From: Acarospora socialis
Taxonomy: Eukaryota > Ascomycota > Lecanoromycetes > Acarosporales > Acarosporaceae
NCBI GenBank assembly: GCA_025617375.2
Contig: JAMYGW020000009.1
Location: 992,001-1,056,000 of the forward strand
Reading direction: 5' to 3'
Length of the DNA: 64,000 bases
Shown: piece by piece, positions 2,118-26,725 of the stretch
How positions within the stretch are numbered: position 1 is the stretch's first letter
How the letters are laid out: the number at the start of each line of letters is the position of its first letter
Position numbers and translations under genes: made by a program
Notes under the pieces: generated by a model
The model's input: only the letters and a program-made list of their open reading frames with translations
Database searches by the model: none
Told to the model about the DNA's origin: nothing

Positions 2118-3897
2118 TCAATCAATCTCCTGCAGTCCGCCCTCGAGATCTATTTCTACCGGCTTCTCCGCCATCCTCGACCCAACGACCTTCTCGAAGA
2201 ATTCTCGCAAATCACCCACGAGTTCGGCAGGCCGCTCCCACGCCGCATACGCGCCACAGCCCTCATGCCTCCGCACCCACAGCAGTGGCTGTACACAAGC
2301 GCCCCAGGCGGGGGGACCGCCGCGCCAACTACCCGCAAAGACAGTGATGCCGAGCGGAGTGGGACTCCACTGCTGTCGGATGGATATCATGTCGCGTGTA
2401 CTATGGCGGTAGAGACGGAGACCTGCTTCGGGGCCCGGGAGCCAGTGGAGCATGGTCCAGTTCAGAATTTCGGTGGGTGTCCAGGGGTAGATGCTGGAGG
2501 AGGTGTAGAGGCGCTGGCGAATGTAGGCGAGGAGGCCAACGGGGGAGTCGCATAGGGCGTAGGAAAGCGTTTGGGGGTATCGCGAAATGTCGGGTTCCTC
2601 TGTGTGGTCGTTACTGCTGTTGTTGTTATATGGCTCTTGTGGAGGGGGAGAAAAGTCGAGCGGGTAGTAGCCGAGAGGTCTGACTGTGGGAAAGACGCGG
2701 TGCGTGAGGCGTGCGAACTGGTATTGAAGCCATATGATAGGTCGATGGGATAATGATGGTGGTCGGACCGACATTGATGTAACGTGAGTAGCGATACAAG
2801 AGGCTGGATAACGGATTGCGAGTAGGCGCGTAATGTGGGAGCCACTTATGATCCTGGGTCAGCTGTTTTCATGACTCAGGAATTGTGTTAGATAGTGGTG
2901 GAGGATCTTGACTCACCTGCCTCCGCCATGAGCCACGTAGTGCCGGTATCCTAAGCGCTTCATCAAGAGATCAAAAATTGATGCAGTTGCACTTAAGTCC
3001 ATCCCCTCTGCATGACTCGCGTCACTAAAGCCAAATCCAGGTATGCTTGGTGCCACCACATGAAAGCTCTGCGCGTTCTCGCCTTTAGGAGGGTTCGTCA
3101 ATGGCTCAATTATCTTGGATGCTTCCAAGACACTGCCTGGCCAGCCATGGCAGAAGAGCAGTGGGATGGCGTACGGTTTCGATGACCGCTTGTGTACAAA
3201 ATGTATACGATGTGGTGGATGAGACGGTAAGGATGAGATCGAGGTACGGTATTGGGGTAGAGAAGCGTTGATCAGTGACTCCTGAGCCCGCCAATCGTAC
3301 GTTTCAAGCCTGATGGAGTGGATCAGCTCCGAAGGTGCAGCACGCTCTCGAAAGTGACAAAAGACACCGACTTGAGAAGTAATTTTGAGAAATGTCAATA
3401 TTCAAAAGCGCTTCTAACTCCTTCACAGCACTTTGTGAGCAAAGAACGTATCAGCCCTTCCCGGACATCATCAGATTGTTCGAGAAACGATGAACAACCC
3501 GTCTCCAGAGATCCCAAATTGAATGCTCACGGAATTCTTTGACAGCAGTTGTGGTCTGCTGGGAGTGATTGGGGAAGAGCTGACGGGCCAACGGCAAAAC
3601 TAGAGCAGTGAAGAAGAGTCTCAAAACCCTCTCACTCAGAACGTACCAAAAGTCAACAAGTGGCTCCAGCTCTGCCTTCGGCACTCCATGCTCCCAGCTC
3701 CTTTCTTTGGGTAATAATATCTCGTGCGGTAATCGAGTCAACTGCAATTTCTGTCTTGTGAGGTCCAGATATTTTGATGATACCTACCATCTCTTCAGCT
3801 CCGTGCCTGCAATACCAGCAACTTCAGCGTTGAGATCAATACTCACACGTATCTTGTAGGGCTCAATAGTCTGGTCCTCATCGTCGCTGGACTCCAT
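2118..3897 (-). CDS. epoxide hydrolase-like protein, catalytic triad lost
   Basis: Alpha/beta-hydrolase of the microsomal epoxide hydrolase type. Exons 3897-3847, 3783-3647, 3309-2917 and 2844-2118 sum to 1308 bases (435 residues), a normal family length, without internal stops. The N-terminal EHN domain (PYKIRV, LQLTRLPHE, VDFW then YDWRAQE) is followed by the oxyanion motif HGWPGS and PSIPGFGFSD. At the nucleophile elbow the family has GGDWGS but this protein reads GGGSGS, so Asp is Gly. The charge-relay acid position (usually FPGE) reads FAGS, and the catalytic His position (usually GGHFAA) reads CGAYAA. The splice at the elbow (AG at 2918-2917 to T at 2844) decides the nucleophile residue but uses ordinary signals. 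Intron 2 is 337 bases, long for this window. No epoxide hydrolysis by the known mechanism is expected; a binding or regulatory role is inference. Confidence 0.82.
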
Positions 3898-22314: not shown

Positions 22315-23268
22315 GCTTCTCGATTATGCTAACAAGTCTTCAAACAATGTCGTATGGAGAGAATGAACGCGGATTTGGGATGCGTCTCATAGAATAGACC
22401 TCCCCCCAGGGGGTCCCCCAGGGGGTTAAGAACATAGGTACGAGTAAGGCTGACGAGCAGGCTTCGAAGCGCCAGGGTTGGATGCTAGGAAGCATCCAGC
22501 CAATCGTTCACTTTCGGGGAAGGCTATCCGCCATCTGGGCACCGGCGCTAAAATGAAACATGATGCATAACTGGCTGATCAGGTTGTACACAGCTTAAAG
22601 AGTAGGTGGGGTTGAGTTGAACGGCCACAATAATATCAATAGTTGGTGGACTATCCAACTGCCTTATTCCGCTATGTTCAGCCTGAACAGGCAGTTGATC
22701 TGGGAGTTGGTAGAGCGGCAAAACCACTCTAACGAGCTGATTGAAGAAGGCGACTGCCGCAAAGAGCAACAAATACGGAGTACGTTGCTATCACAGCCAT
22801 ACGACAGAACGGGCTGAACACCGCTAAGAGATACTCGCTATTGGTTCGAAGCCTTGACTAGGTCTGCGGCAAGGCAAGAGGATCAGCAAGCATGCAGGTG
22901 TTCCCGCCTTCACTCTTCTATGGCTGTACGAGTAAACTCATGCCATCCACCCAATCTTCAATGAGTGGAGCGCCCACACACCCGGGAGAGTGCATGCTAG
23001 ACAGAGAATGCTCCAAAACCTCTGGCGTGAATTCGGCCGATCCATTCTGACCCATCGACATACACATACGGAGGAACTCTCCAAGTATAGCAGCTTATCA
23101 GTTCCGTATCGAGGAAGCCGGGTTAGAGGGCGGGTGCCTTGATCATCAGCTTCATACACAATCTAGCGCTCCAATTCATTATTTTACCTTATTTCCCCTT
23201 GGGCGCCATTGCAGGACTGCACAATACTCTAAGGTCCTTGCCTTCAGGAAAGGCAAATTTGTTGCTAT
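22315..23268. other. intergenic, divergent promoter region
   Basis: 954 bases between the P450 (minus) and the NLR gene (plus). It contains the paired C5AG5T repeats (listed separately). Minus- and plus-strand frames in 22548-23200 have no family resemblance. Confidence 0.5.
22403..22426. promoter_or_regulatory. two tandem self-complementary C5AG5T repeats (STRE-like)
   Basis: Two perfect 12-base copies of CCCCCAGGGGGT. Each is a 5-base inverted repeat around one A and contains AGGGG, the core of stress-response elements bound by Msn2/4-type C2H2 factors. They lie about 90-110 bases before the P450 start codon, so they probably belong to its promoter or leader. Confidence 0.45.
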
Positions 23269-26200
23269 ATGGCAGATCCTTTCTCCATCATTGTTGGAAC
23301 AGCTGGTTTGACCGATATCTGCATACGTTTTGGGGTCTTCTTGAAACAAGCCATAGATGGATTTCAAAAGGTAGACAAGGATCTAGAGGAATTGTCAAAG
23401 GAGATCACAGCACTCCACTCCGTGAGCGACCTGATCAAACGCAGTTTTGAGGCCGATCTAGCCGGAACAAGGGATGCCAATGACCAGCAGATAATAGACA
23501 ACCATTGGCAAGCGACTCAAACCACGCTAGAAGGATGTCAAGTTATATTAAAGAAGTTGAGTGCCTTAATAACCGATATCCTGGGCGAGGAGAAGCCCAA
23601 ATACGCCAAACTCAAGAGTCTACGAAAGTTTTTGAGGCAGCAGTCAAAGGAGGGCGAATTCGTCGAGTTGCGGCAAAGGCTACGTGCCTATCTGATCGCC
23701 CTGCAAACGAGTTTAGCAGCGGTCAATGTGTAGGCCGAATTGCTCAAGCCCTTCGGCTTCAAGTTGTTAACAAGGAACAGTATCTATACTCGAGAATCGC
23801 AATCGACGTTGAAAGGGTCCTTTTCAGAACTATCAAAGAAGATTCAAAGCCTAGGTGCTGATCTGCAATCCAAAATTATCGCTTTGCAAGCAAACATCGA
23901 ATCTTCCACAGAGAAAACTGTAAGTCATCTATGCCCGAACATGTCAATATAAAAATTAATAACTTTGAAGCTCGACAATGCTGTGACGTCCGCCCAAAAC
24001 GTGGTACCCCTCGCATCTCTCAACAAACACTTTTCTACCCCTCAGAGTGTCAGCAGTATTTTCACTGGTCGGGCTACTGATCTAGAGACGTTGAGAGACT
24101 GTCTCCATGCTCCAACGTCTACCAACCAGCTTCAAGCACAGAGAAGATTTGTCATTTATGGGCTGCCAGGATCAGGCAAAACGCAATTTTGCTGCAAGTT
24201 CGCCTCAGACAACAGGCAAAGGTAAATCAGATAACGACCCTCAAGACAGTCTGTAACTAAGTCAGAGCGCTAGCTTTTGGGGAGTTTTCTGGATTGATGC
24301 GAGCTCCAGTGAGCATGCTAAGCAATCCTTCGCGACAATTGCAAGAATCGGGAAGGTCGAGCCGAATGAACGTGCTGCGAAGAACTGGCTTTCCAACCTC
24401 AGTATAGAGCAGCCGTGGCTGCTCATCATCGACAACGCTGATGAGTTAAGCTTTTCAGTCAAGGAGCTGTTTCCGGATGGTGATAGTGGTGTTATTCTCA
24501 TAACAACGAGGAACCCAATCCTGAAGGTGCATGGCACTGCTGGTCCTCGTTACTATCATTTTGCTGAGCTTGGTGAGGCTGAGTCGGTTGAGCTCCTCCT
24601 AAGAGCCGCCGATGAATCATTGCCATGGTCCCAATCCACCCTCGAGTCAGCAAAGGAAATTTGCAGGAGTCTGGGCTACCTACCACTAGCTCTTCTGCAC
24701 GCAGGAAAAACTATCCTTGCCCGTCTTTGTACCCTCGAGAACTACCTCAGCTTCTTTGAAAAGAACTGGACTCGCATCCGGAAGATGAAAACCTCACACG
24801 ACACAGGTTTCATTACAGATGCCAATGCCGCTATCTATTCGAGCTACGAACTTATACATGATGCACTCGTGGCAAAGGGGACGCAAGCTTCCGGAGACGC
24901 ATTAGATTTACTCAAGATCTTCTCCTTTCTTCATCGTCAACGCATCCGAGTGGACATCTTCCTGCGTGCGGCATCGAATCCTACACTTGAAATACTGGAG
25001 CAACGCCGACGAGCACAAGAGGAAACCATTATCAACAGTCAAGCGAAACCGAATTCTACCCCGGCTCAGACCATCAAAAAGTTTGCTTTTGGGGTACTCG
25101 CGTTCTTGTTGAATCTGGGTTATCGCCCTGTTCTACCACGAATGCTCAGCGACGCGCTCAGATCAAGATCTTTTGATGAATTGCGGCTCCGGGAAGCGTT
25201 GAAAGAGCTCTTTCAGTTTTCTCTAGTGTTTGCTAACCCCGATCCAAAAGACGACAGTTATTCCATGCATCCTGCGGTCCATCTATGGGTGAGAGAAAGA
25301 CCAGAGATGACAATCGGAGACCAAGCAGTATGGTGCCAAGCAACAGCGACTATACTCACCCAAGCCATTCTCCTTCCCCCATTGGGCGATAGAGAGTATG
25401 ACGAAATCCTTCGAAGGGATCTACTTCCACATGTTAGTCATGTACAGAGCAACGAGCAAATGATTCGAGCCAGATTTTCAGAAAATCAGGAATCTAGAAG
25501 ACGAATATGGCCGGTGCTACAGCCGCGACTCAACCGGGCCCAAGCAATGCAGCTTGTCAAGTTCAGTCTGGTGTACGCGCAATGTGGCCTTTTGGAAGAA
25601 GCTGAGAAGCTACAATTACAGGTAAAGGACTTCTGTATGAGAACGGTGGGCATAGAACACACCTCTACGATGGACGTTATGCTATTGTTATCGAGGACCT
25701 ATCAGCTTACGAAGGGCGACGAGGCTGCGGATCTGCAACAACGTGTCTTGGACGTGTGCATCAAGGTTCGTGGCAAGGATGATCTCAAAACACTCAGGGT
25801 CATGGACATATTAGGATCAAGTCGGTGGCAGCAAGGGCGAATTCGAGAAGCGCGAGAAATTCATGAAAATGCCGTGGACGGGTTGAAGAAGGTGCTTGGC
25901 CACGACCACGTAGACACGTTGAGGGCCAAGGGTAATCTTGGCCGAGCGGTTGGAAAGGATTTCGGGTTTTCAAAAGCCATCAAGATACACTCCGAGGTCC
26001 TCTCTGGTCTTCACAAACAGCTCGGCCAATCTCACCTGGATACCCTCATCGCCAAGGACAATCTGGCTATGGCTTACTTCGATAGAGCCGCATATGGCTA
26101 TGGCCATCCCGGCGATCTCGACGCCGCGGCTCAGTTGGAACAAGAGGTTTGGAAGGAGCGGAAGGAAAAGCTCGGAAAGGAGAACCTTTATACTCTCTGG

Positions 26201-26725
26201 GCCGGTCTCAACCTCGCGCGTATCAAGGCCTTACGCGGCGAAATCGACGAAGCCTTGGCGATATTTCTCTCCGGGCATGCAATCGCAAGGCGAAACTTAG
26301 GCGAAACCCACTTCGGTGTTCTCTTCGGCAAGCTCCACTATGGCCGTATTCTTACCTATGCAAAGAGGTACGAAGAGGCGGAGGAGATATTATCGGAGGT
26401 CATTGAGTCATACGGGGGATCGCGCAAAGGCCATCCGGACCGTCTCCTTGCGATAACATCCTTGATCAAGTGCCGGAATCTGCTAGGTAAACAAGCAGAA
26501 ACGACAGCTCTTCACCAAGAGCTTACACAGCGTACTAAAGCTCTCTTCGGTGAAAATCATCCCTGGGTCACATACCTTCTCGATCCGGTGACTCTAGCGA
26601 AAGAGCCGGATGACGAGGTGAAAACACCTGTTGAATCAATCACCAGAGTCAATACAGGCGTTGGTTCTACTGAGACCATGATGCCCGTGGCTATGATTGC
26701 GAAATATGGGCACATCTATGCATGA
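23269..26725 (+). CDS. STAND/NLR protein: fungal N-terminal domain, NB-ARC, TPR repeats
   Basis: Signal-transduction NTPase of the fungal NLR type, likely in non-self recognition. Parts: 23269-23730 (start MADPFSIIVGTAGLTDICIR, the N-terminal domain found on fungal STAND proteins), 23740-23919, 23971-24221 and 24268-26725. Introns 23920-23970 and 24222-24267 have good signals. The NTPase shows FVIYGLPGSGKTQF (Walker A), WLLIIDNADE (Walker B), GVILITTRN and a GYLPLALLHAG helix. The C-terminal half holds about six 42-residue kinesin-light-chain-type TPRs (for example RGKDDLKTLRVMDILGSSRW, GHDHVDTLRAKGNLGRAV). The frame closes at 23731-23733, between the N-terminal domain and the next coiled segment, and I found no convincing intron there. 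The copy may be broken, or may need an unusual splice. Confidence 0.85.

Follow-up and report, generated by a model that had tools for sequence, protein, structure and literature searches.

A four-exon gene of the EHN (microsomal) type of epoxide hydrolase was recovered by exon assembly and translation at 3897-2118, on the minus strand of the window (the whole 64,000-nucleotide stretch of Acarospora socialis DNA that was analyzed, to which all positions refer). Its 435-aa product carries none of the three catalytic triad residues of its relatives and, judged from sequence, has probably lost epoxide hydrolase activity. The protein is best explained, with a probability of about two in three, as a maintained pseudoenzyme, an EHN-type scaffold whose split from an active enzyme is old and which is without covalent catalysis.

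The spliced exons total 1308 nt, or 436 codons with the stop, and contain no internal stop codon, while the introns (63, 337, and 72 nt) have GT..AG borders in all three cases (Table 1). This bears out a first-pass annotation of the same DNA, which had described 436 stop-free codons joined at normal splice sites. Intron 2 is long compared with its neighbors. Its sequence matched only its own place in a genome search, a result that does not prove rarity but on which the possibility of a repeated element was rejected. Nor is an exon hidden within this intron needed, as the solved relatives shown align across it without a gap. Local frameshifts that might mask the catalytic motifs were also considered, but inspection by eye of the alternative frames across exon 4 (40 aa or longer) showed no epoxide hydrolase motif.

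Table 1. Exons, introns, and active-site codons of the hydrolase gene (window positions)
Feature	Position	Strand	Remarks
Exon 1	3847..3897	(-)	start codon 3897-3895
Exon 2	3647..3783	(-)	EHN domain, first part
Intron 2	3310..3646	(-)	337 nt, GT..AG
Exon 3	2917..3309	(-)	EHN second part and start of alpha/beta-hydrolase core; HGWPGS at 3149-3132
Intron 3	2845..2916	(-)	72 nt, GT..AG, within the nucleophile elbow
Exon 4	2118..2844	(-)	remaining core and cap; stop codon 2120-2118
Codon 193 GGC (Gly)	2919..2921	(-)	nucleophile Asp in relatives
Codon 276 GAG (Glu)	2598..2600	(-)	first cap Tyr column in the 82-sequence alignment; assignment uncertain
Codon 339 TAC (Tyr)	2409..2411	(-)	second cap Tyr, kept
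Codon 366 AGT (Ser)	2328..2330	(-)	charge-relay acid position; Asp/Glu in 72/79 relatives
Codon 392 GCG (Ala)	2250..2252	(-)	catalytic His position

HET, Hid1, and P450 genes lie nearby, and these together with the short introns suggest a filamentous fungus. A HET-domain frame at 37-1738 on the plus strand converges on the hydrolase gene. In it, two open frames overlap at 908-1020 in different frames, which may reflect a frame change or an intron near 1000. A large open frame at 23233-26725, preceded by a shorter one, encodes tetratricopeptide repeats at 24257-26722 and may be an NLR-like gene.

The 435-aa protein is predicted to adopt the scaffold of an epoxide hydrolase and is probably soluble. 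Pfam EHN (PF06441) matches residues 11-125 (E 6.2e-34), and Abhydrolase_1 matches residues 112-210 only (E 4.1e-14). At the sequence level the oxyanion motif HGWPGS is retained at residues 117-122, and the column of His117 is His in all 81 relatives; the persistence of this motif and of the EHN domain, reported in the first-pass annotation, holds. Among solved structures the nearest matches are epoxide hydrolases, the 11 hits including 5f4z (E 7.2e-49), 4i19, the Aspergillus niger enzyme 1qo7 (E 1.5e-33), and the Bombyx mori JHEH 4qla. These four (E 7.2e-49 to 1.5e-30) have the EHN domain, HGWPGS, DSPxGLLA, and the second cap tyrosine in common with the window protein, which differs from all of them in missing the Asp, the acid, and the His.

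The relatives used for comparison are the single paralog found in the genome and the best 80 of 96 loci obtained when genomes of bacteria and archaea were scanned once. The scan patterns did not include the triad residues, and reading frames were chosen by BLAST. Two sequences, L057 and L071, fall short of the acid and His columns, and L057 is also short of the Asp column. The tree holds 79 sequences and uses 77 of the 80 loci; L078 was likewise omitted, its reported match being partial. Searches for further relatives returned 80 pattern matches on viral contigs, none of them a relative, and 450 plasmid records with a relative, all below 60% identity.

Against this background the loss at the active site is clear. 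Gly193, Ser366, and Ala392 align on the Asp, acid, and His of 5f4z and 1qo7, within motifs that read GGGSGS (191-196), FAGS (363-366), and CGAYAA (390-395), just as had been read in the first pass. The nucleophile column is Asp in all 80 relatives that reach it (one of the 81 falls short), and the base column is His in 79 of 79; among the 79 relatives that span the two columns (78 from bacteria, plus the paralog), every one keeps both residues. The acid column is more variable, being Asp or Glu in 72 of 79, and five of the seven others have such a residue in a neighboring column. All three replacements are small residues. A change from His to GCG takes at least three base changes and one from the acid to AGT at least two, so the loss is not a single recent mutation.

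The state of the cap is less certain. Two cap tyrosines of epoxide hydrolases are needed as a pair for catalysis (PMC8244358). The second, Tyr339, is kept in a column that is Tyr in 77 of 79 relatives. The 82-sequence alignment places Glu276 in the first cap Tyr column (Tyr in 52, Phe in 18, and His in nine of 79 relatives), but a two-sequence alignment with the paralog puts Tyr266 there, followed by an insert. Because these alignments conflict, the first cap tyrosine is not counted as lost, and its loss is uncertain. Compared with the paralog, the window protein has some 15 additional residues in the loop that precedes PQTL, which leaves the position of this tyrosine uncertain.

The paralog lies on contig 11 at 119200 (G000 C11:119200, L004) and is, besides the window gene, the one EHN gene that a search of the genome (31.1 Mb, 38 contigs) found; such counts are minimum values when a family is large. 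Its spliced product has 411 aa with intact triad motifs (GGDWG, FPRE, and GGHFAA). The window protein is its sister with a support of 0.989, in a tree with no other fungal sequence. The two proteins share 38% identity, too little for a recent duplicate, an origin that was therefore rejected. The genes differ in their intron places, and only the paralog has an intact triad. Intron 3 of the window gene interrupts the nucleophile elbow itself, and the nearest intron of the paralog lies several codons upstream.

Among 36 columns at least 95% invariant, 32 are kept (conserved columns being counted only where a residue is present in at least 70 of 81 relatives), and the four lost are Asp193, His392, and the changes Y62F and W301Y. 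The last two are conservative, whereas the other two columns are catalytic. A hand estimate puts at about 0.01 the probability that four lost columns of 36 would include both catalytic ones, but this is not used as evidence, because that very loss is what drew attention to the gene. At a threshold of 90% invariance, 40 of 48 columns are kept, the lowest share of the 82 sequences; the next lowest belongs to an intact sequence from a bacterium (40 of 47). The codon score in frame is 0.066 per codon (0.068 for exons 1-3 and 0.066 for exon 4), and shifted frames score negative. The 10 open frames taken as genes in the window span 0.008 to 0.139, a range that includes these values; the paralog scores higher, at 0.126. 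Synonymous codon choice is only slightly better than chance, being matched by 48 of 1000 random sets.

The two parts of the protein have evolved at different rates. The N-terminal part has a terminal branch of 0.86 against 0.70 for the paralog, and six of the 77 sequences from bacteria are at least as distant from the others. The C-terminal part, encoded by exon 4, has a branch of 1.64 against 0.66, and its mean distance to the bacterial set exceeds that of every one of the 77. The rate thus splits inside one gene, the exon 4 half (2118-2844) running at about 2.5 times the paralog's branch and the N-terminal half (2917-3897) near it. Neutral evolution scaled to these branches was simulated with 200 runs per setting, a rough procedure that allows substitutions only, ignores indels, and equates branch length with replacements per codon. 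Some 22 stops would be expected in exon 4, where none is seen, and 10.5 in exons 1-3. The probability of no stop in exon 4 is 0.005 if 25% of the branch was neutral and 0.11 if 10% was; for exons 1-3 the corresponding values are 0.085 and 0.335. A long-standing decay of the gene is unlikely, since the exon 4 branch alone predicts about 22 stops and shows none.

A younger decay, in which constraint is relaxed, catalysis is gone, and the frame is still open on its way to a pseudogene, accommodates the long exon 4 branch, the lowest retention of conserved columns, and the weak synonymous bias. It must, however, be reconciled with 1308 nt free of stops and frameshifts, and the neutral share of the exon 4 branch would be about 10% at most, or roughly 0.08 substitutions per site (with a probability of 0.11 for the absence of stops). 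A share of that size seems too small to account for the two and three base changes needed in codons 366 and 392. The stop-free frame and these several changes together argue against a young decay as the cause of the triad loss, though a more recent relaxation may have occurred. The rate of exons 1-3, close to that of the paralog, also speaks against it, yet up to a quarter of that branch could have been neutral. Relaxed constraint is on these grounds an unlikely account. The first-pass annotation had proposed a pseudoenzyme in a maintained gene, and this stands in part: the lost catalytic residues, intact frame, and coding bias favor it, whereas the long exon 4 branch and the lowest share of conserved columns weigh against the claim that the gene is maintained.

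A changed enzyme, with a new nucleophile or nucleophile-free chemistry, is distinctly improbable. Ser194 could serve as nucleophile if the elbow had shifted by one residue, and GGSGS in the window protein fits the small-x-nucleophile-x-small pattern. Some alpha/beta-hydrolases also act without a canonical nucleophile, but the carboxy lyases described as nucleophile-free keep a D/E-H dyad (PMC11878206). In the window protein, by contrast, the base position has no His and the usual acid position no acid. The nearest His, H387, stands in a column where most relatives have Pro or Asp; a His does occur there in the A. niger enzyme, but alongside that enzyme's own catalytic His.

Alternative splicing of intron 3 was examined for a form that would restore the nucleophile. 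Every GT or GC donor from 2990 to 2790 was paired with every AG acceptor in that interval, for introns of at least 30 nt, and none of the nine in-frame, stop-free splices yields an Asp in the elbow. Recovery of the Asp by this route is ruled out across these nine, and the restoring splice that would have overturned the first-pass reading was not found. Only two of the nine use a GT donor, and two acceptors fit that donor. The favored splice has a branch-like site, CTGAC, about 14 nt upstream of its acceptor. An error of gene model or assembly, whether another intron 3 splice or a truncation at the TGA after exon 3 if intron 3 is retained, could draw on the position of intron 3 inside the elbow, unlike that of the paralog's intron, and on the two acceptors, but is very improbable indeed given that none of the nine in-frame GT/GC..AG splices supplies the Asp, that the acid and His losses lie inside exon 4, far from the junctions, and that exon 4 has coding bias and a product 33% identical to the C-terminal part of the paralog. 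It may be speculated that the Asp disappeared through sliding of the intron 3 splice junction.

Losses of catalysis are known for other members of the fold. The gibberellin receptor GID1 is an alpha/beta-hydrolase that has lost catalysis and binds a small ligand; it belongs to the hormone-sensitive-lipase family and, unlike the window protein, keeps part of its triad. Cfl2 belongs to a different epoxide hydrolase subfamily from the EHN type. This Cif-like protein has been proposed as a possible pseudoenzyme that acts without catalysis, though it retains its epoxide hydrolase motifs (PMC8244358). Alpha/beta-hydrolase families without a full triad include DUF687, DUF3530, Arb2, and CGI-58, of which the first two have suggested binding, scaffolding, or non-enzymatic roles and CGI-58 a suggested cofactor role (PMC11878206). 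They resemble the window protein in having the fold without the full triad, but none is described as EHN in the accessible part of that source, where a missing serine is the only loss stated for CGI-58 (PMC11878206). Among the literature matches listed for pseudoenzyme, inactive, or triad-lacking epoxide hydrolases, a scope mostly outside subscription papers, there was no EHN protein with the whole triad lost. Pseudoenzymes of the alpha/beta-hydrolase fold are thus known, and a triad-less EHN member is new as far as this literature search reaches.

Under the preferred explanation, a maintained pseudoenzyme, the ancestor would have been an active EHN-type epoxide hydrolase from which the lineage diverged long ago. 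The Asp, acid, and His would then have been lost, and the protein would now work without covalent catalysis. The exchange of the triad for Gly, Ser, and Ala may have left a larger active-site pocket, and the protein may, as the first-pass annotation suggested, bind lipids, epoxides, or a partner enzyme. Since lipophilic molecules are bound by epoxide hydrolases, a lipid or epoxide ligand is a natural candidate, as is pairing with the paralog. Most likely, the emptied pocket would hold a lipophilic ligand or, alternatively, the protein would pair with another hydrolase such as the intact contig 11 paralog. A more specific scenario, in which the fold has become a small-molecule receptor or regulatory subunit with an opened pocket and a lengthened cap loop, exon 4 evolving fast under selection for a ligand or partner and the EHN half staying constrained, is tentative and somewhat unlikely.

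Domain matches alone would mislabel this protein as an epoxide hydrolase. If the maintained pseudoenzyme reading is true, a triad-less EHN protein that keeps most of its scaffold would offer a test case for the reuse of epoxide hydrolases.
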